Below are positions 4,697 through 53,222 of a stretch of DNA of 60,000 nucleotides, piece by piece. Source of the DNA: Tubulanus polymorphus (taxonomy: Eukaryota > Nemertea > Palaeonemertea > Tubulaniformes > Tubulanidae). The notes under the pieces were generated by a model, which saw nothing but the letters and a program-made list of their open reading frames with translations, had not been told where the DNA came from and searched no databases. The DNA is taken from NCBI RefSeq assembly GCF_964204645.1, contig NC_134025.1, positions 19,872,001-19,932,000 on the forward strand, in the 5' to 3' direction. The translations under genes were made by a program, and so were the position numbers. Position 1 is the first letter of the stretch. Each line of letters opens with the position of its first letter.

Positions 4697-7007
4697 ATAA
4701 TCGATTCAGACCAGACTGCTTTGGCAATCCCATTAAAATAGGAAAAAGGGATAATCTTACATAAAAAATGGCAGTTTAATCTGAAATTGAATAGAAATTA
4801 TTAAGATTCTATAAGTGTTTCTTAAATCTTTTTTTTTATTGAGATCATAAAAAAGTAGAAACTAATCTGGAAACGACAGTAAACAATAATTGCACAAGTG
4901 AGTCGATTGTTGTAGATTACAATCTACTGGGTCCTATGTTGAGAAAAAGCTAACTCACATTTTGGTCTAGTAGCTATTTTTCCTGCGTTATCAATAAGGG
5001 CAACAGTTCAAACTTTACCGTTTTAGCTAAAACTATATTCAATTTTTCATTTTTTACAAATGAACGAACAGCTTCATTGACAATTCCACAAGTTGTGGTC
5101 ATCAGAAAGATGGACAAGAGTAGCATAAGAAGACAGTTTGAGAAGACAATATTATTTCATTTCAACGTTTCGAAAAACATAAAATTGCGCATGTTGTTTG
5201 ATATGAATTCATTGCACCGGTATATTATTTGATAATCATCAGCTGTAATTACGTAAACCTGATTTGAACAGTATCATCAATCTTACCTAATGAAAATACA
5301 ATAAACAACTAATCCTATATACTTTCATATACAACCAAGACTATTGCCGTGCGATGGCAGATTAGGGCAAATGCAATGCAAGAGATATACCGATAAATTC
5401 CATTGCGTTAATTCGATCATTCAAACTGTAGGTTGCCAGAAATAAATTGATTACTTATAGCGTCAAATTAAATGCCATATACAATGGTATACATACACAT
5501 GGCCAATGTTATACATGCATACACATGCCTATCCTCAAAACAACCTGTAATCAATCAACAATTCTCAAATCCACCCTGATAATAATACATCGGCTCAGGG
5601 AGCTGTTCTCTCACCTCCCAATCAGATCATAATGATGATAATATTAATAAACATAATTTATTTTCTTATATAGCGAACTCTTATCAGCACGTGAACAATT
5701 AACACGAGCTGTCAAAATAGTATTTCAAAACAGGTGGAGAATAAATATGAAGTTAGAATTTACTGATGACTATATGATTAGTTACGGCAATAAATTTCCC
5801 TTAAAACGTAAGTTTTCGAATTCTTCTTTGAACATTGAAATGGACTTTGCCTGATAGTTAAGGGCAATTGGTTGGTTTCATGAGAATTTAAATGTAAATT
5901 TGAACACCCTGTAATCTTTCCCTAATTAGTCTGTTCCTATTTGGCCCATACCTGGAATGGACCCATTTAGAACAGACCGACCAAATCAATGGTGCGCATT
6001 CACACACATTTTCAAATCAGCTGTTATTACTGGTCCCCCTAGATGCGATACTGTGTCACACTGAGAAATGGTCCGTACTAAAGTTCAAATTTTCTAAAAA
6101 GCAACAGCCTTTTCCTGTGTGAAAAAGGATGGTCCCTTCTAAAATGGAATTGACTACATATGGTGTGACTGCGGCTAATGAAAATTGTAATCAAGTATAA
6201 ACAACTTTTACATTGTAATGGAGTATTTCAATGATTAAGCAATGCTAATATCACTTAAGATATGGGCAGACTCATTGCAAATTTTTCTTTTGAATTTCTA
6301 ACCCAATCATACGCTGGTATTTGTATTCCTTGATCATAAAGCATGTAGAAAAATGAAAAATAGTATGTAGAAAAATGAAAAATTCTTATTTGTCATGAAA
6401 AGGAAAAATATTCTTTTTTCCAAGTGAATTTCTACTCGAAACCAGTGGAGGCATCTATCATGAAGCTTAAACATTAAAACATAAACCGGAGGTTACCGTC
6501 TATATGGTTATAGTCTCAAGACTATTAATTTAACACTACCGCATTCGCAACCATTTGATTGCCTCAAGACTAAATAGGTTTCACGTTTTATATTCCTGAG
6601 ACTTAACTAGACTCTACGTAGATGCTAGACTTAATGTTGGCAAGGCTAAAAAAGTGCACCAAGCCGGCCAGGTGATTAAGTTTATGTCCTTATGGAAAGA
6701 AGATATGTTGGTGTTGCATGCAACTCTTTAGCAGTGTTAGTTACAAGATGAACATCGTGATCTTCACCTGAACGAATAGAAAAGTGGATATTGTTCATCT
6801 AGAGAGCAAAAACAAAACAAACACTACCCAAATTACACAACAGTCCATGGCTACGTTTACATGTCATCAGTTTTGTGTATACACTACAATACAGGATGTA
6901 GCTCTATTGCCCAAATAGGGGATATGGCTAATTGTATTTCTTTGGTAACCACAGGAATTGGTAAAAATAAATATTCTTATTTTCATTACCAGCAGATGAT
7001 GAACCTA
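4697..7007. other. Intergenic, largely featureless
   Basis: A degenerate MITE-like segment at about 5930-6176 (CTATTTGGCCCATACC near the left, GTGTGACTGCGGCT at the right) may belong to the TTTGGCCC family. A short duplication TATGTAGAAAAATGAAAAAT lies at 6340-6380. Nothing else recognised. Confidence 0.45.
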
Positions 7008-16200: not shown

Positions 16201-19200
16201 ACGCTGTATATAAACTGGTCCGTTATTTTTTATTTCATGCGGCGGTGAAGGCTTTTTTCGAAAGTTCATGAGATCAAGTAACTTACGCTGGTCTGATTCC
16301 GATGGGAAGCTCACATTGCTATTGGCACTTTGTGACGGCGCTTCTTGTCCATCCCATGAGGCCCGAGAGGCAATCGGTGATGGTTCCTGAGATATTCCAC
16401 CCAGCACATTGACATCAGATTTCTCATCTAGAAAATAAAGAATAAATTATATTGATTATATTCTAATTCAATTGAAATGGAAAAGGTGTCTAACCTTTGA
16501 TATAAGAATGATGTACAAAAATACTAACGTAAAATGCAAATAACATGAATCATTAGTATGCTCTCAAAATGCACAGCGCCAAAGGACATCACATTGTCTT
16601 AAGAACAATCTCACCGATCATGAATAAATCCCCAAAACACAACAAAAACTGATATCTGTATTGACAGGACAGGATGTCTTAAGCCTTATTGACATTTCAT
16701 TTCATGTTCTCAATCGGTTCTTTCAAAGTTTTAAAGGTCAATACAGGAAGAAAAATTTAGAGAAATGGAAGATTTAATTGATGATGACATTTGTGGCGTA
16801 CAACAAATTCTAAAGGAGACCGACTATTGCTAGAAGCTATGCGCAGCAAAACATCACCATCTACATGCATGATCCCTAAGAAACCAAGAATGAGAAGCGG
16901 ATATATAAACGAACTGTTTGATATCTTAAGTAGGAAAAGGCAGATTTAAATTCACAGATTCCAGGAACACATTATTATTCGAAAATGGAATTATTAAATT
17001 CGTGGAATCAGTTGTAAAGCTGAAAAAAGAAATACAGTTATGATTGGGCCAGGATAAAGACAAAGCAATAAGTAACCTGGCAGACTAGGTTGAGGCAAAT
17101 GTATGATTCATCAGTGGAACACTGACCGAGGCTACAATATTGTAACCTAGGTCGGTTGAATTGCGCGGATTTATCTGCATACACTGACCGAGGCTACAAT
17201 ATTGTAACCCGGTTGAATTGCGCGGATTTATCTGCATACACTGACCGAGGCTACAATATTGTAACCTAGGTCGGTTGACTTGCGCAGATTTATTTGCATA
17301 CACTGACCGAGGCTACAATATTGTGACCTTGGTCGGTTTACTACATTATATTTGCAGAATTCACTAAGCCAAGACCAAGATCAGTCAGTTAACTTGATCA
17401 GTTTTTGTATTTATTGCTGCTCCGATATCAGTCGGTTGATTTGTAGTTTTGACAAACGAGGAATCCTAAAGTGTTTCAGTCAAACGTCTCCTATCATTGA
17501 GGAATGACATGAACAGTTAGGAATGTACATCATACACATTGAAAATTAAGGGTTTAAAAGAAGTTTAAGTACGAGCCTTATACTTATATTGCGCAATTGC
17601 AATGATAGATAAAAAACGTTTCTAGAATCGGGTGACAATTTATATAAAATTGGAGTCAGATGTGCATTGTTTTGGGGGTGTTCGAACTTCGCTGAATCAC
17701 TGAATCGTTGATTTTTATATAAATTTCGCTGATTTGAATTTACGCTGAATCCATGCACATTTTACATATTCTAAAGAAAATGTTTCATTTGACCGATTCA
17801 TTGATAAATTTCGTTAGATTGTAAGTTGAGGCAACAATTGAAATGAAATCATTTGACTGCTGGATGTGATCACAAATAACAAATAAACTGACGCCAAAAT
17901 AGTCTACCTTTCAGAAAGAGTCTACTGCTGAAAAGTGACTGTTGTAAAACATGTGATGTGCCAGTGTGCTAGCATTTTGATAGTGAACACTGGCAGTAGA
18001 GGTGACTGTAACCAACCGATTGCAAACAGCGACTTAGTGATAGTAACTCCTACCACAATAGCTACTCTCAAAACACATCGTTTCTAAAAGTCAACCAGTG
18101 AAAAGTGACCATTTTGAGATGGCACGGTAATTTCCTGTTCAAAATAGCCACATCTGTTTAAGATTTGCAGTAATACGTGACAGGGTCAAAGGTACTGTTA
18201 AACCTCATGCTTTGTATACAGAACTCTGTATGCAGTTCTGTCAATAGAAATCCTAGTTTCTGAGTTGCTAAGAAAACCCCCTAAATTATATCACGCTCAA
18301 CAAAATGGAAATAACCAATAGGAAAACTATTGATTTATATAACATCATTATGGATTAAATCCGTTAAAACTAGTGTTGTGCCAGATCTAATTTAGAATTT
18401 TATGATTTTTGTTTTATATTTGCGATTATAAAACATGCTGGTGCATTCATACTGTCATAAATCTTTGATTCTGTAGAAATGAATTTGCCTTTTAGGCTTC
18501 ATTTGTCTTCAAGGATATATGAGAGACGAAAATACAAATAAAATCATATGTTCATGAAATGGATTATGTCTTTACATTTCATTACCTGGATGAAAGACTC
18601 CAAAAAATTTTCCCAAAAAAATGTATCTAAAATACTTAGAATTAACCTACAATTATTGTTTGTTTATATACCCGAACTGTTTGATATCTTAAGTAGGAAA
18701 AGGCAGATTTAAATTCACAGATTCCAGGGGAGAACCTACAATTTTTGAAATTGTTGTCCCATGAAATAAGGAAGATATTATCAAGAGGCACAAGCGATGG
18801 AAGGCATTTTGGAGACCACAAGAGGGTCTGTCTCTCTTGTAAGGAACTTGTCAGACATTTTACATTTAATACGTCTAAAAAGATATTCTGGGCAACATGG
18901 GGACCTCCATTAAGTGACCATTTTTCATATTAGAGCCAAGAGAAAAAAAAAAAAAAATTTCTAAACTTTCAACTTCTATATCAAATTCATAGGGTGCTTT
19001 GACATTTAGTGAGAGGAACCTGAACCCTAGATACCCGGATGTATAGGGCATGTTCGGATATTGAATCCAGTCAAAAAATAATCTTCAAACAAAACACACA
19101 GTTTCTGGATATATGTGACCTTAATAAACTCCATTAATTAAGACCGAAAAACCTGCATGAAGCAGATGCACAAGAAGTGACAGTTAAGTGAGAAATCTTG

Positions 19201-28200: not shown

Positions 28201-31200
28201 GGTTGCACATTGATACCTACAATAACTTAACCAAAAGGATAAATCATTTAAGGCGGGTATACCAGTTTTCACGAGTTATGGCAAAATTGGATGATGTCGA
28301 GCAATATCGGACATGTTAGATATTCAGGCGTCCTGACATGCCTCATCATCGGCTCATGTACGCTCACCACCAATAGATCATCAGACTAGTAGAGCATTTC
28401 AGCCAATCACTAGCCAGCCAGTGTGACCTCTAGGGATCTCACACGTGACGCTGATGGTCTATAACAGGCAGTAGATATTAGATCCGGGTAAAGGAACAAG
28501 CAAGGAATGACTACTTGTCGCGTACAATACGAGCAACAGTAACAAAAAAATTGGTCAATACTTCATTGCATCCGAAAGTTGAAAATCGGTTTGTGTTAAT
28601 GCAGGCCTTCACTTAATTTGAACTGTGAGGGGGTTGGGTACCTCCTTGATTTGAATTAGAATACAACAGTGTGGTGATCTCCCATAGAAATGTTGTTGAC
28701 GAGTTTCAAAAGTGATGACTCTCGGCCATAATTAACCTGTGTATGAAATATTGAGATCGTTAGCCGACAAACTATATTACTTTTACCATGGGCCTGGTGT
28801 TTAATGTGAATAATAGGGCAGTCTACTAAACCATGTACTCAATAGTCTGGGATCAAATCGGGCACAGGAGGTTTAAAATGGGAGTTACTGACAGTGGCAA
28901 GGGCCGTGCTGATTCAAATGAGTGGGGGACATTAAAATGCACCCAAGCTACGGGCATGCATTGATTTCAAGCCAGTTAAATTTACCTTTGTTTGAAGCAG
29001 TATCTACATAACCATCGTTTCTCTATTGGTACATCGTATTTACAGTTCGTGCAGATTTTATTATGACATTTCGGACAAATTTCTCCCCGATGGAATACGA
29101 CGCCGAGTTTAGCTCTGCATCGCGCGCACAAATACGCTGGATCCTCTCCTGGCTTTATCACGCTTTTTAGTCGAATTTGGTTCAATTCACGCTTCAAATT
29201 TCTGAGGGAAAAAATCACACAAGAAAGAACATACATTGAAAATTCTGATTAAATTCCGCGTAAAAGTCATAGCTTTTTTCTCATCTGACTGCCACGCAAT
29301 CAAGAACTTCAGTGCACTTATACAGCAAGAAAATTCACAATCCATACACAATCTATATCATCATTATCATGTCATTTGTCGTGTAAGATGATCATAACAT
29401 ACATTAAAAAAAAATTAAGGTGAGAGGATCAGGGATGGATCCAGGAAAATTGGAAGGCTCGGGCCCAGTAAGAAAGACAAGGAGCCTTTTGGCTTATATA
29501 GCACCACTGTGTGATTTGAAGAAATAGAAACTGCATACCTAGGGGTGCCCCCTTATGGCCAAATCCAAAGAGCTCTGTACTTTGTAGGTATTGGTCCATA
29601 GAACATTCATACCAAATTTGGAATTGATCTCATTAATACTGAAAGACAAGTAGCAATTTGAATAGAAACTCCAACCCCAGGGGCACCCCATGGGGGACGA
29701 ATCCTAAAAATGGCTCTGTAACCTAACTTTATAGGCCTAGGTCCATAGAACATTCACATCAAATTTGGAATTGATCTGATTAAAACTGTAGGACTAGCAG
29801 CGATTTGAAGAAAAAGTTGACGGACGAACGAACGAACGAACGACGGCTCACCCCTAACCCATTAGCTCAGCTGGCCTTCCGTCACAGCGGAGCTAAAAAG
29901 GCATCACTTGGAATGATAGAGCAGCCATGTCAAAGGTCACGAGCAAGGAAGAAATACATTTTGAAAGATGCAATTTCCAAAAGGTGGTATACAGTAGTTT
30001 AAAATACAAAGCTGTGAATAACAACCTATTAGTATAGGATAATTGTATCTATTTATCATTTGGTTGTTACATTATTACATCATTATAGATATAACATAAT
30101 ATACTGTGAAATAAATTGCCCATGGGCAAAGTGTGGTTTACCTTGAAAGCTAGAGGTTGTTAGGAGTAAGAGCATTTTATCTTTCTTACAGTATTATTTT
30201 GTAATCAAATAAGACCAAAGATAAACATTTGTTTACGGTATACGTCAAAAATTTCGTAGGGTACAGATAGGCACAACAGGGAAACTATTTTATATTTTCA
30301 AAAAAATATTTTTCACAATATGAAAAAATATTCATATGATGTCACATAAGTAATAGGGATAATAGGCTTTCAGATCAAAGGTCGAAGGGTCGAGCTCGTA
30401 AAAAAATGAAAATAACAATAATTTACAGTTGAATTAGTCGCGCACACTCCTAATTCAACTGTAAATTATTATTATTTTCATTTTTTTACTCACTCACCCC
30501 TTCAACCTTTAACCTGAAAGCCCATTATCCCTATTACTCTTAAAATATTCATATATATATATGAACATAATTTACATGAATAACATATAAATTGATAGAT
30601 TATTCAATATAAAAGTGTGAGTAAAGTGTTAGTAAAAAAGTAACGAGTAATTAACGAGCTCTTATAGAATAGATAGATAGATATATTTTAAACATTATTT
30701 CAATATTTATATTTGTATGAGTTAGATTTTTAAACATTAAAAGTGTTAGTAAAGTGTGATTGAAATAATTCATATATAAATCATTGAATATTTATATTTA
30801 TATGCGTTAAATTCTTATTTTCAATATAAAAAGTAACGAGTAATTAACGAGTGAAATAATTCATATTTAAAACAGTGAATATTTATATTTATATGCGTTA
30901 AATTCTTATTTTATGTTTAAAAGTAACGAGTAATTAACGAGTTGATGAAAATATCAATTTTAATAACAAAATTACTTATAAATATGAATGAACAGATACT
31001 ACATTTCAAAGATATCGATTTAAATGAATTAGAAAAATATTTTACAATTAAAAATTTCATTCCTATTAAAGATTTGATTAAAACTGCGCGGCTTCGTTTT
31101 CAAGTGAAAAATATTACTGAATTAGTGTTTAAAAATCACTATCTAATAATAGAGTTATCGAATGATAAAGATAAAATCTTATTCAATACAATAATTCCAA

Positions 31201-34200
31201 AATTCACAACATTTGATGGAATAGATAAACATTCAATAATTACAGATGAAATGCAATCACTTTTTAATAATGAAAATTCACATAAAACATTATTTTTACA
31301 CTTACGTTATTGCCCATTCAGAGAATGCTATGTTATGTTTTTCAGATTACAAGAAAAGAGATTTATCCCTGACATTCCAAATGAAAAATCATATAAAGAT
31401 GTTGGAATTCAATGTAACTTAGATAATGAAATTGTTGCGCCTAAATATAATCCTAATGAAAGCGTTTTATGTAATTGTGGAAAATATTATACTCGAAGCA
31501 ATAAATCACACCATCTTAAATCAAAATATCATAACACATATTAAAGATAAAAAACTAATAACATAACAGATGATTTAAAAACATCAAAACATCATTTTGT
31601 TTTCAGTAACTATCCTAAAGATCATGAATTGTTTAGCATGAAATGATAAATTGTTTGACAGTTGAAATGATAAATTGTTTGGCAGTTGAAATGATAAATT
31701 GTTTGACAGTTGAAATGATACATTGTTTGACAGTTGAAATGATAAATTGTTTGACAGTTTAAATGATAAATTGTTTAACAGTTGAAATGATAAATTGTTT
31801 GACAGTTGAAATGATAAATTATTTGACAGTTGAAATGATAAATTGTTTGACAGTTGAAATGATAAATTGTTTGACAGTTGAAATGTTAAATTGTTTGGCT
31901 GTAAATTTAATTGTTATTTGATTTAATCATTTAAAAGTTAAATATTTTTAAAATGATTATAAAATATTTAATTAAAAACTAGCAAATATTTTATAAACTG
32001 TTTAATATTTCTCTTAAATAAATGGATGGTTTCATCCCAACTGGGAAAAGTGATTTGAAACATTATTTAGTAGCAGGCGGATTAATATTGGCTGCGCTTT
32101 TCTTTTATTATGAAAATATCAGTAAGGATTTGATTAATGAAAATATAAAATTGAGCAAGAAATTAAAGAAGTTAAATGGAAACAATCACAGAAAGAATAA
32201 CAATAAAAAAGTTAATGATTTAAATGATTTGGAGGATTAAAACAGCATCTTTTAATTTAATTTATTCTATATATTTTGACTATAAAAATGAGTGAAAATA
32301 AGGTATTAGAAATATTACATCTAATATATAAAAATCAACAGAATATTAAATCAATTATTATGATTTCAGGTTTATTTTCATTCTCAGTTTATACTATAAA
32401 ACAGTTGTTAGAATTCTATGATTGCTGTAAAATTAGATACACTGAATTAATAGAAAATATAAATTATCTATCAGATCGAATAAATAATATTAAATGCTGT
32501 GAAATATGTAATAAAAGATATAAAAATAAAAAGAGTTTGAGAAATCACATGTATATTCATGAATTAGATGAGAAATTTCATAATTCAAATTGAGAATAAG
32601 ACTGTTAAATTGGTTGAAAATATAAAAATAGATAATATTATAACTATTTCAATATTTAGATAAATAATTTATATTTATGATTTTTATAAAAACTAATTTA
32701 TATATCTATGTACTAGACGTACGAGTAAGAAAGTAAGATTCTTGCCAAGAAAGTAAGATTTCTTGGATTCTTACTCGTACGTCTAGTAGATTGTTGTAAA
32801 TGAAATAAATCACGAATAAGACTGTTAAATTAGCTGAAATGTATGAAATATTGTATGAAATATTAGTTAACCAAAAAAGGGGGTTGAGGTATCAATGTAT
32901 TAAATACGTATTTAATACGTATTAATGGTATTAAATACGTATTAATGGTATCAAATACATATTATGCTTTATTTCTGAAAATGAAGTCACAGAAGTAATT
33001 TATGTTTTTATTCATTCAAGTATGATATTGTAAATTCTTTACATTTGACTAGGATAATACAAGAGTGATATTAGTTAGCTTATTCAATAAGAGAAACAAT
33101 GAAATAATACAAGAGTGATACTAACAGTTAAAGTTATTGAATTTCTTGTTAAATCTATTTGAATTCTAGTCAATTCTTGTTAACCAATAGCGCGAATAGA
33201 AATCAAAAAGATTTAAATAAAAAAACAATAAGTTAAATAAGTTAGTATAAGATAAAGTAACTTATTGTTTTTTTATTTAAATCTTTTTGATTTCTATTCG
33301 CGCTATTGGTTAACAAGAATTGACTAGAATTGATTTAATATTCTGTTGATTTTTATATATTAGATGTAATATTTCTAATACCTTATTTTCACTCATTTTT
33401 AAAGTCAAAATATATAGAATAAATTAAATTAAAAGATGCTGTTTTAATCCTCCAAATCATTTAAATCATTAACTTTTTTATTGTTATTCTTTCTGTGATT
33501 GTTTCCATTTAACTTCTTTAATTTCTTGCTCAATTTTATATTTTCATTAATCAAATCCTTACTGATATTTTCATAATAAAAGAAAAGCGCAGCCAATATT
33601 AATCCGCCTGCTACTAAATAATGTTTCAAATCACTTTTCCCAGTTGGGATGAAACCATCCATTTATTTAAGAGAAAAATTAAACAGTTTATAAAATATTT
33701 GCTAGTTTTTAATTAAATATTTTATAATCATTTTAAAAATATTAAACTTTTAAATGATTAAATCAAATAACAATTAAATTTACAGCCAAACAATTTAACA
33801 TTTCAACTGTCAAACAATTTATCATTTCAACTGTCAAACAATTTATCATTTCAACTGTCAAATAATTTATCATTTCAACTGTCGAACAATTTATCATTTC
33901 AACTGTCAAACAATTTATCATTTCAACTGTCAAACAATTTATCATTTAAACTGTCAAACAATTTATCATTTCAACTGTTAAACAATTTATCATTTCAACT
34001 GTCAAACAATTTATCATTTCAACTGTCAAACAATTTATCATTTCAACTGTCAAACAATCTATCATTTCAACTGTCAAACAATTTATCATTTCAACTGTCT
34101 TATCATTTCCACAGTCGAACAATTTATCATTTCAACTGTCAAACAATTTATCATTTCAACTGTCAAACAATTTATCATTTCAACTGTCAAACAATTTATC

Positions 34201-37200
34201 ATTTCAACTGTCTTATCATTTCAACAGTCGAACAATTTATCATTTCAACTGTCAAACAATTTATCATTTCAACTGTCAAACAATTTATCATTTCAACTGT
34301 CAAACAATTTATCATTTCAACTGCCAAACAATTTATCATTTCAACTGTCAAAAAATTTATCATTTCATGCTAAACAATTCATGATCTTTAGGATAGTTAC
34401 TGAAATCAAAATGATGTTTTGATGTTTTTAAATCATCTGTTATGTTATTAGTTTTTATCTTTAATATGTGTTATGATATTTTGATTTAAGATAGTGTGAT
34501 TTATTGCTTCGAGTATAATATTTTCCACAATTACATAAAACGCTTTCATTAGGATTATATTTAGGCGCAACAATTTCATTATCTAAGTTACATTGAATTC
34601 CAACATCTTTATATGATTTTTCATTTGGAATGTCAGGGATAAATCTCTTTTCTTGTAATCTGAAAAACATAACATAGCATTCTCTAAATGGGCAATAACG
34701 TAAGTGTAAAAATAATGTTTTATGTGAATTTTCATTTTAAAAAGTGATTGCATTTCATCTGTAATTATTGAATGTTTATCTATTCTATCAAATGTTGTGA
34801 ATTTTGGAATTATTGTATCGAATAAGATTTTATCTTTATCATTCGATAACTCTATTATTAGATAGTGATTTTTAAACACTAATTCAGTAATATTTTTCAC
34901 TTGAAAACGAAGCCGCGCAGTTTTAATCAAATCTTTAATAGGAATGAAATTTTTAATTGTAAAATATTTTTCTAATTCATTTAAATCGATATCTTTGAAA
35001 TGTAGTATCTGTTCATTCATATTTATAAGTAATTTTGTTATTAAAATTGATATTTTCATCAACTCGTTAATTACTCGTTACTTTTAAACATAAAATAAGA
35101 ATTTAACGCATATAAATATAAATATTCACTGTTTTAAATATGAATTATTTCACTCGTTAATTACTCGTTACTTTTTATATTGAAAATAAGAATTTAACGC
35201 ATATAAATATAAATATTCAATGATTTATATATGAATTATTTCAATCACACTTTACTAACACTTTTAATGTTTAAAAATCTAACTCATACAAATATAAATA
35301 TTGAAATAATGTTTAAAATATATCTATCTATCTATTCTATAAGAGCTCGTTAATTACTCGTTACTTTTTTACTAACACTTTACTCACACTTTTATATTGA
35401 ATAATCTATCAATTTATATGTTATTCATGTAAATTATGTTTATATATATATATATGAATATTTTAAGAGTAATAGGGATAATGGGCTTTCAGGTTAAAGG
35501 TTGAAGGGGCGAGTGAGTAAAAAAATGAATAATAATTTACAGTTGAATTAGGAGTGTGCGCGACTAATTCAACTGTAAATTATTGTTATTTTCATTTTTT
35601 TACGAGCTCGACCCTTCGACCTTAGATCTGAAAGCCTATTATCCCTATTACTCACATATCAGAGGATGGCTGAATATTGAGTCTTGGAAACGAAACCTCT
35701 TCCAATGTATGGCCGCGGAAGCTAAAACACCGGGCGTAGTATTAGATCGTTTTAAATCCTGGAATTTACCATTACAATATTCAGACCTCGACCTATACCT
35801 ATAGTTTGCTGCTTAGTATTTTCAGGTCACGAGAAATTACAATTTATTACAAATTCTATCGAACAGAAAACACAGCTCATCTTCTGCTACGACGATTATT
35901 CAGCCTGTTATCATACCAAACGTGCACGCGCCAAGCAGCGTTACAGCATCACCATATAGTAGTCTGTATGAGCGTGTGTTTGTGTGCGCAACAGTCTATA
36001 GCACTCTTGCGCAAGTGGAGGCCTTGTGTAGTGAACGTTTGCTTCACTTCAATCTCAATCACCGATCACCGGGTATTAAAATGAAACAATACCTATGGCG
36101 ATATGTGAATAATTATATTCTCACCAGCAACAAGCATTTAAAATTCGCACATATACGGCACCAGTCCAATGAAACGTTCGCCATTAATGGCTTTCCCATA
36201 ATTATTTTAGTAGCGCCGGAATTCCCTGTATATCCCAAAAATAGCCAATCACATTCGCTCGTAGAGACGATGCCCCCCGATCGAGGTCATAGCATTTTGT
36301 TACGCAAGAGCTAAGAATTTTCCCGCCAAAAACAGTTTTTCATCGAATTTAAACAAAGTTTACCATGTCATCGACGGAGGTTCGTCATGTCTTCAATCGC
36401 ATCGATTATACATCGTTTGACCCGAGAACCAATGAAAAAAATTCTCACATAAAAAAAAAGTGGCGCAATTTTACATGAATTGGCTCAATGCCAACCTCAT
36501 ACTGCTGACAAAGGTAAACCAAAAATGTAACAGTGTGGGCTCCGGATATATATATTCAACAAGGAAATATCACATCAAACTTAAATCAAGCCTGTGTAGT
36601 TTTACAGTTCATTCAGCACTAACCAGGGATTTGAGCCCCAACCCTTACCTAAAGGAACTCGGAAAATACTACGCATCAAGCGAATAGATGATAAATTTAT
36701 GTCACAGCCATTGCTATTTTTGGGTAAACTTGAGGCAAGAAATTCACCGGGGATAACCAATCTAATTAATCTATTAGAAGCTCTAACGGAAACCTGCGGG
36801 TACCTGAAGGAATTAATTAACTGCAAAACAAAAGCTATAGCTTCGAGAAAATTTGCAGTGATTAAATTCAACTAGATACTCATTCCAGGGTAATCTTATG
36901 GAAAAATCCAGAAGAAAAACTAAATGACCTCATATCAGGGCTGGCAGAAAAGAGGTGGCTGAAGAATGAACTACATTTAATTGCATGAATCAGCTCAAGA
37001 TTTTTTTAGTCAATAATTGTTTATCTTAATCTGCTCTTCCGATTAAACTGTATTTCATCGTTAACGCATAAAGGCTGGCGACTTGAAGAAATATAGCTAC
37101 AACCGCAAACGCCATCTGCGAATACAATTAAGAACTAACATATAAAACCAAAAAAAATTTGTTAACATATGCCACGATCACAAGTGCCAAAAATGCTTGT

Positions 37201-52019: not shown

Positions 52020-53222
52020 CTAACAAAATCACTTTTGAAATTAAAAGGGCAATGATTTCAGCTCACAGTAACTCGGAATTTACCTAGAAAGTCAGTTGGG
52101 AAATTTAAAAAAGATGATTTCAGCTCAGAAACTCAGAATTTACCTAAATCACTTGTGAAATGCGAGGATTTCACTTCAGAAATGTAGCGTTGTGACATCG
52201 CTCTCTTGAAAAGAATCCATTGTTGTTCTGGTGAGTTGTGTGTGATCCCAGTTGTCACTGCGAAATTAAAAGGGCGATGATTTCGGCTCAGTAACTCGGA
52301 ATTTACCTAAAAGTCGCTTGCAAAATTAAAAGGGCGATCATTTCGGCTCAGAAACTAGGAATTTACCTACAAAATCGCTTGCGAAATTAAAAGGGCGATG
52401 ATTTCGGCTCAGAAACTCGGAATTTACCTAAAAAGTCGTTTGCGGAATTAAAAGGGCGATGATATTAGGTCAGAAACTCGGAATTTACCTAAAAAGTCAC
52501 TTGCGAAATTAAAAGGGCGATGATTTCAGGTCAGAAACTCGGAATTTACCTACAGAATCACTTGCGAAATGAAAAGGGCGATAATTTCGGCTCAGAAACT
52601 CGTAATTTACCTACAGAATCACTTGCGAAATGAAAAGGGCGATAATTTCGGCTCAGAAACTCGGAATTTACCTAAAAGTCGCTTGCGAAATTAAAAGGGC
52701 GACAATTTCGGCTCAGAAACTAGGAATTTACCTAAAAAGTCGCTTGCGAAATTATAAGGGCGATCATTTCGGCTCAGAAACAAGGAATTTACCTAAAAAG
52801 TCGCTTGCGAAATTAAAAGGGCGATCATTTCGGCTCAGAAACTCGAAATTTACCTAAAAAGTTGCTTAAGAAATTAAAAGGGCGATGATTTCGGCTCAGA
52901 AACTCGGAATTTACCTAAAAAGTCGCTTCCGAGATTAAAAGAGCGATCATTTCAGCTCAGAAACTCGAAATTAACCTACAAAATCACTTGCGAAATTAAA
53001 AGGGCGATGATTTCAGGTCAGAAACTCGGAATTTACCTAAAAAGTCACTTGCGGAATTAAAAAGGCGATGATTTCAGGTCAGAAACTCGGAATTTACCTA
53101 AAAAGTCACTTGCGAAATTAAAAGGGCGATGATTTCAGCTCAGAAACTCGGAAAATACCTAAAAAGTGACTTGCGGAAATAAAAGGGCGATGATTTCAAC
53201 TCAGAAACAAGGAATTTACGTA
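52020..53222. repeat. 61-bp minisatellite, roughly 18-20 copies
   Basis: The unit reads GCGAAATTAAAAGGGCGATG, then ATTTCGGCTCAGAAACTCGG, then AATTTACCTAAAAAGTCGCTT. Copies from 52258 on are 80-95 percent alike by eye; copies left of that are more diverged and one is interrupted around 52185-52255. The unit is 60-61 bp, not a clean multiple of three, so frames through it are not genes. Confidence 0.9.

Follow-up and report, generated by a model that had tools for sequence, protein, structure and literature searches.

What is the 5304 bp palindromic insertion at positions 30349-35652 of the window, the 60,000-nucleotide stretch of Tubulanus polymorphus contig NC_134025.1 (positions 19,872,001 to 19,932,000) analysed here, and whose enzymes does it use? 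A sequence-only reading of this DNA had described the element, which we term E0, as neither a normal miniature inverted-repeat transposable element (MITE) nor an autonomous Polinton, and had proposed a satellite or derivative that borrows its enzymes. We consider it likely that E0 is a satellite of Polintons, non-autonomous, equipped with conserved genes of its own and mobilised in trans, and the gene-bearing family to which it belongs probably lives as a parasite of Polintons in the same genome. Direct support comes from its Polinton termini, the 6-bp target duplication that both share, fossils of helper sequence, a recurrent head-to-head gene layout, conserved hairpins and selection on its open reading frames (ORFs) ORF1-ORF3.

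The helpers came to light through the ends of E0 in the genome searched (G000; 267.8 Mb, 77 contigs). The first 200 bp of E0 recur at 97-100% identity in at least 40 places (the best 40 of 1610 candidates), several of which pair in inverted orientation 11-47 kb apart, and seven pairs, picked since both of their ends match the end of E0 at 97-98%, were read as elements E1-E7. These are 11.3-18.2 kb long, with 6-bp duplications (six exact, one 5/6) and, in 7/7, terminal inverted repeats of 335-759 aligned columns at 83-99% identity. A merged cluster of frames containing PolB (F0) is found in all seven; ORF L009:1161-4721 has the motifs NNLYGWAM, NNAFYGKT and YFDTDS, from which we take it to be PolB, and the PolB models of Pfam and NCBIfam gave no match at the cut-offs used. 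An EndoVII domain scored 2.1e-6 in L011:1058-3688, above the cut-off, and 0.0013 in L009:1161-4721, below it. At the ORF length used, the integrase family F3 is present in 6/7 elements (L015:4002-5096: rve 1.9e-9, above the cut-off, and Chromo 9.7e-5, below it), the ATPase family F13 in 5/7 (L010:5318-5926: Pox_A32 6.2e-12, A32-type) and the capsid family F11 likewise in 5/7. The predicted fold of F11 (predicted local distance difference test score, pLDDT, 77.9; 331 of ~415 residues) matches the double-jelly-roll capsids of PBCV-1 (2.8e-9), iridovirus and mavirus, and 653 of 1816 candidate sequences are homologues of the protein at E <= 0.001. Family F16, at first taken as the capsid protein, was dropped on its coiled-coil-like and hydrophobic C-terminal sequence, F11 then becoming the candidate. 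Scans with NCBIfam and PHROGs gave little besides transposase/integrase, terminase-like and EndoVII matches. With PolB, integrase, A32-type ATPase and double-jelly-roll capsid between E0-like ends, E1-E7 are Polintons; longer relatives of this kind are what the sequence-only reading had proposed to look for.

Polinton sequence is also found inside E0, at both termini, directly after ORF1 in each arm and at the centre:

30349-30788, plus strand: left terminal region common to Polintons (E0 bases 1-440; 96% identical to E2/L011 and E6/L019)
35216-35652, minus strand: right terminal region common to Polintons (E0 bases 4868-5304)
31536-31649, plus strand: PolB fossil, left arm, in PolB orientation, just downstream of the DTDS motif
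34357-34469, minus strand: PolB fossil, right arm
32620-32965, no strand assigned: central stretch, parts of which match Polinton DNA next to the ATPase gene, at 73-93% identity in pieces

The end of E0 matches all 14 end pieces of E1-E7 at 82-96% identity over spans of 220-446 bp (440-446 bp in nine pieces, 384 bp in two, 220 bp in both E1 ends, and 268 bp plus a separate 109 bp in one). The PolB fossil, ~113 bp in each arm, is 89-94% identical to the PolB of 7/7 Polintons, and the central pieces match the ATPase-adjacent region in five of them. Helper termini, a 6-bp duplication and helper remnants mark E0 as a non-autonomous Polinton derivative, and the proposed descent is supported: integrase- and PolB-bearing relatives of 11-18 kb have near-identical ends and have left fossils in E0, and on these sequences the enzymes would be borrowed from such relatives. 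A domain scan of the E0 ORFs 30945-31544, 32022-32240, 32288-32593 and 34583-35059 found no polymerase, integrase, ATPase or capsid domain, no helicase and no parvovirus Rep/NS1 or capsid domain. E0 is thus no autonomous Polinton: its own polymerase, integrase, ATPase and capsid genes are absent from the four scanned ORFs, and PolB is there only as the fossil.

That E0 was inserted as a unit, which had been claimed from its inverted arms, AG...CT ends and exact CACATA duplication, was borne out by direct reading and by arm alignments. The element begins with AGTAATAGGG and ends with CCCTATTACT, between flanks that are identical over 6 bp:

30343-30348, no strand assigned: target-site duplication CACATA, left copy (read directly)
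35653-35658, no strand assigned: target-site duplication CACATA, right copy (read directly)

Duplications were examined in the satellites with both ends recognised, one-ended loci being outside the set, and all nine (E0, S1, L025, L026, S4, L036, L044, L047 and L048) have exact 6-bp duplications; copies without one, named earlier as the finding that would speak against insertion, did not turn up among them. The satellites range from 1962 bp (L036) to the 5304 bp of E0, with S1 at ~3.1 kb and S4 at ~4.9 kb by coordinates.

The genes of E0 lie in its arms and just inside them:

30945-31544, plus strand: ORF1, 199 residues, intact, with a C-terminal CxC..H(x5)H zinc-finger-like motif
34461-35059, minus strand: right-arm copy of ORF1, its frame broken into frames of 158 and 69 residues
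32022-32240, plus strand: ORF2, 72 residues, with a borderline hydrophobic stretch
33444-33662, minus strand: right-arm copy of ORF2, identical in DNA to the left copy
32288-32593, plus strand: ORF3, 101 residues, with a borderline hydrophobic stretch and a C2H2 finger at the C-terminus (Pfam matches narrowly missing the cut-off)

As had been noted before, the two ORF2 copies are identical (0/219 nucleotides differ). The C-terminal Cys/His motif of ORF1 is nearly invariant among homologues. ORF1 gave 154 listed genomic matches; for ORF3 the best 150 of 375 candidates were scored, 114 of them without internal stop. Among the matches listed, ORF3 pairs within 6 kb are 15 convergent, 0 divergent and 0 tandem, 30 of the 150 scored matches sitting in convergent pairs 0.5-2.9 kb apart, and ORF1 pairs within 8 kb are 25 convergent versus 2 divergent (150 of the 154 rows were typed, some being pieces of one broken copy). 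ORF1 lies on the same strand within 4.5 kb upstream of ORF3 in 27/150 cases and downstream in 0/150, again among matches listed. From the convergent ORF1 and ORF3 counts it follows that the head-to-head layout recurs across the family.

Median pairwise ratios of nonsynonymous to synonymous change (dN/dS; Nei-Gojobori) are 0.15 for ORF2, 0.24 for ORF3 and, for ORF1, 0.37 between close and 0.63 between distant copies, in sets of 9 ORF2, 8 ORF3, and 11 and 13 ORF1 frames that were hand-picked and mostly intact and whose related copies are not independent. ORF2, with a median dS of 0.76, is deeply diverged yet conserved. Judged by these ratios, ORF1-ORF3 are under purifying selection. A MITE has no conserved coding capacity, and E0 departs from this in the low ratios of ORF2 and ORF3 and in the stop-free ORF3 matches; the double claim that it is neither MITE nor autonomous Polinton accordingly stood up, on these values and on the lack of Polinton enzyme and capsid domains in the four scanned ORFs. 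ORF1 had zero matches among 5.8 billion proteins, the ORF3 profile search returned a single match (P0122, 64%), and no match of the ORF1, ORF3 and capsid profiles to viral contigs was confirmed. Residues 151-160 of ORF1 (KDVGIQCNLD) presumably resemble the peptides bound by dynein light chain LC8. A similar GIQC stretch precedes this position in distant homologues.

The ends of E0 fold into hairpins:

30349-30538, plus strand: left terminal hairpin, 190 bp, AGTAATAGGG...CCCTATTACT, 12-nucleotide loop TCGCGCACACTC, folding z -17.3
35468-35652, minus strand: right terminal hairpin, 185 bp, whose loop, read from the end towards the interior, is oriented like that of the left hairpin

The left 190 bp form a single hairpin of -65.2 kcal/mol, a stability that 0/200 shuffles equalled, and are 97-98% identical to at least 38 other genomic places and to the right end of E0. 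Of 30 ORF1 loci, L045 was dropped, the palindrome there belonging to a neighbouring element; 20 of the other 29 gave 25 palindromic termini of 121-403 bp that start with AGTAATAGGG or one mismatch off and have folding z-scores of -12 to -28 (40 shuffles each). The nine loci without a palindromic terminus are L031, L034, L041, L042, L051 and four with a half-stem; only the outer half-stem is present at the termini of L028, L033, L029 and L032, and at the left end of L036. Hairpin ends, which the sequence-only reading had ascribed to the element, are thus usual in the family and not universal. The loop motif CGCACACTC (at most one mismatch) occurs in 19/25 termini, located via ORF1 and including the left end of E0, and has the same orientation in 19/19. 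All 14 ends of E1-E7 hold the loop in that orientation as well, which is not independent evidence, because these elements were picked by end similarity. In 18 of the 25 termini (omitting the longer ones, L026 twice, L027, L030, L035 and L040, and one L048 end) 97.9% of stem cells are paired versus 83.5% after shuffling, with two-sided changes in 91 cells versus 32.2 and one-sided changes in 2; sliding the stem partner lowers pairing to 36-52%. The paired-cell and two-sided counts indicate that the hairpin is kept while its sequence changes, the two halves changing together.

Ends and bodies of the satellites tell different histories. From ~400 bp inward E0 is 93-100% identical to S1, S2, L026 and S4 (97-100% for S1), whereas its terminal 200 bp are only 77% identical to S1, 85-89% to S2, 58-72% to L026 and 37-75% to S4, the last of which lacks the inner half-stem. 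Over these terminal 200 bp E0 matches Polintons E1, E2 and E6, and also satellite L036, at 94-99%; E0 and E2 are 95-99% identical in the first 200 bp and unrelated past ~450 bp. Near-identical bodies with different end types imply separate histories of body and end, and these comparisons suggest that satellites exchange hairpin ends. Sister arms are the closest or tied-closest relatives in 6/6 two-armed elements (clearly so in four, tied in E0 and S4), a pattern that copying between arms would produce.

A mechanism can be proposed along these lines. The helper integrase would insert the satellite by recognising the outer part of its ends, for which half-stems of ~60-77 bp may have sufficed in S4, and the helper PolB would copy the linear satellite from its ends. 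The terminal hairpin with its fixed loop could serve as a site for origin recognition or packaging, the end then behaving as a telomere-like replicator and not as a flip/flop parvovirus end, and our guess is that helper ATPase and capsid may package the satellite. The palindromic body could arise if, while an end is being replicated, a strand snapped back on itself and copied one arm, with later copying between arms keeping them alike. The products of ORF1-ORF3, zinc-finger proteins and small hydrophobic ones, would target the helper or take part in end recognition, and satellites would track their helpers by exchanging hairpin ends. A wider version, which we hold with somewhat less than even confidence, is that of a long-lived clade of virophage or transpoviron type that parasitises Polintons inside a eukaryotic genome, replicates in the form of linear palindromes with hairpin telomeres and switches helper by swapping telomeres. 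Polintons are regarded as viruses concealed in genomes, and in the open-access literature, as far as it could be covered, we found no parasites of Polintons with genes of their own described. Satellites whose hairpin ends are shared and can be swapped offer a ready view of the features that the Polinton machinery recognises, and allow tests of replication, packaging and integration of Polinton DNA in trans.

The nearest competing explanation, which we judge unlikely, is that E0 is an ordinary internal-deletion derivative and that ORF1-ORF3 owe their conservation to a larger autonomous Polinton subfamily and not to life as a satellite. The PolB and central Polinton fossils within E0 fit such an origin, as do longer relatives of ORF1: in homologues of up to 310 residues the ORF1 core is joined to the two N-terminal zinc fingers of PolB; by-eye comparison places an ORF1-PolB-finger fusion at L070 beside HNH-like and F10-like genes, and ORF1-like frames at L053 and L061 beside the HNH-like gene, both genes being present at Polinton right ends too; and at L063 the C-terminal part of PolB directly follows ORF1. 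(The HNH-like gene is what we take it to be from its motif; Pfam gave no match.) Yet among the ORF1 and ORF3 matches listed none lies inside any of E1-E7, the ORF2 and ORF3 profiles found nothing in these elements and the ORF1 profile found just the common zinc-finger part. Moreover, the closely spaced convergent ORF3 pairs fit small palindromic elements, and the conservation of ORF2 at its depth of divergence also argues against deletion. Considerably less probable is that the ends are rolling-hairpin telomeres as in parvoviruses or poxviruses, where a self-priming 3' end and terminal resolution invert the hairpin in every round. The strength of the hairpins would suit this, the excess of two-sided over one-sided stem changes looks as though one stem half had served as template for its partner, and L010:1387-2379 matches the telomere-resolvase model ResT-TelK at E = 0.091 (12.8 versus a 27-bit cut-off), far too weakly to be treated as other than noise, although it is the sole hint of hairpin resolution. 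However, a single loop orientation in every one of the motif-bearing satellite termini (6 of the 25 examined being without the motif) argues against flip/flop resolution, the Polinton ends agree, chosen though they were by end similarity, the scanned ORFs hold no Rep or NS1 domain, and the helper polymerase, by its motifs, presumably resembles the protein-primed Polinton type. The parvovirus comparison in the sequence-only reading has therefore been given up. Long, near-identical arms are also a classic artefact, and an assembly error, or an inverted duplication of local origin after insertion, has to be weighed; we give it next to no credence. E0 is no assembly artefact because all nine satellites have exact duplications; related copies with 6-bp duplications of their own lie on other contigs, many contigs hold head-to-head gene pairs, and the arms of E0 differ from each other in repeat number and in the ORF1 frame break, which also removes the earlier worry of two haplotypes joined head to head.

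Several points weigh against the satellite reading itself. The relatives of ORF1 just described, fused to PolB fingers or adjoining Polinton right-end genes, indicate a present or former role of ORF1 as a Polinton accessory gene; between distant types its dN/dS is just moderately low, a listed ORF1 stands upstream in no more than the said 27 of 150 ORF3 rows, and its predicted structure has no confident fold (pLDDT 36), too poor for a structure search. The hairpin is not strictly needed, because the half-stem-only S4 (L028/L033) and L036 have exact duplications, and further pair types in the stems do not exceed shuffles (22 vs 22.2). Finally, the satellites are known here from genomic sequence alone, from which we infer mobilisation in trans.

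Among known systems, Polintons or Mavericks (adintovirus-like) are closest to E0. Vertebrate Mavericks are described, in the text available to us, with 6-bp duplications and AGT-type end motifs (PMC8097293), and the present family shares the 6-bp duplications and AGT-starting inverted termini, with PolB, rve, A32 ATPase and double-jelly-roll capsid in the long relatives; E0 differs in having none of these genes and in ends that read AGTAAT, not (AGT)2 or (AG)3. Within the open-access literature, subscription papers mostly and Repbase being outside this scope, no paper on gene-bearing Polinton satellites or hairpin Polinton termini was found, nor a description of terminal hairpins with a conserved loop in Polintons; in PMC8097293 and PMC12721341 the main text never uses the word hairpin, and PMC11071308 has it in the reference list only. 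Transpovirons, which as far as that source could be consulted have six to eight genes, one of them for a stand-alone Zn-ribbon protein (PMC3671162), resemble E0, as virophages do, in being small parasites that exploit a larger virus, but the helper here is a chromosomal Polinton, the body of E0 is palindromic and its scanned ORFs lack a helicase. With MITEs and Foldback-type elements E0 shares long inverted repeats, non-autonomy and target duplications, whereas its arms hold genes under apparent purifying selection and its ends are of Polinton type. Telomeres of Streptomyces linear replicons are reported, in the accessible part of the source, to have packed palindromic termini with a terminal protein (PMC4513846). 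They illustrate that palindromic ends and a terminal protein are compatible; being bacterial, they would offer a likeness of mechanism only. Vierula and Bertrand reportedly described, in 1992, a deletion derivative of the kalilo linear plasmid that forms hairpin and duplex structures. This mitochondrial plasmid may be a precedent for snap-back palindromes.

The arms of E0 were aligned piecewise. The 130-bp ends are 98% complementary; 30551-31267 and 34737-35453 match at 100%, 31262-31553 and 34452-34743 at 99%, and 31639-32372 and 33312-34045 at 98%, the innermost arms being separated by 939 bp, and gapped alignments give 97.8% over 1556 columns and 98.1% over 731. A 24-bp tandem array differs in length between the arms:

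31639-31897, plus strand: 24-bp tandem array, left arm, 10.8 copies
33787-34367, minus strand: 24-bp tandem array, right arm, 24.8 copies

Several reading frames stay open across this array, which has grown to ~1.6-2.2 kb per arm in the L068/L069 relative with a distant ORF1 type. E0 is low in G+C, with 22-25% in the five 1-kb windows of 30001-35000 and 29% in 35001-36000, against 33-47% in the remaining 54.

Elsewhere in the genome, three ORF1-like frames of 294 residues lie on one strand of contig C10, exactly 2744 bp apart (C10:6058627, 6061371 and 6064115, the first being L061), which suggests a tandem array of a Polinton-end fragment. The frames at L070:2948-4423, beside a Polinton-like end, presumably resemble another mobile element with a recombinase. 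In the window outside E0, none of the eight host ORFs scanned had a Pfam match above the cut-off. Two further tandem repeats are present there, a 61-bp unit in 15.8 copies with 89% matches at 52259-53219 and a 62-bp unit in 3.6 copies at 17119-17338.

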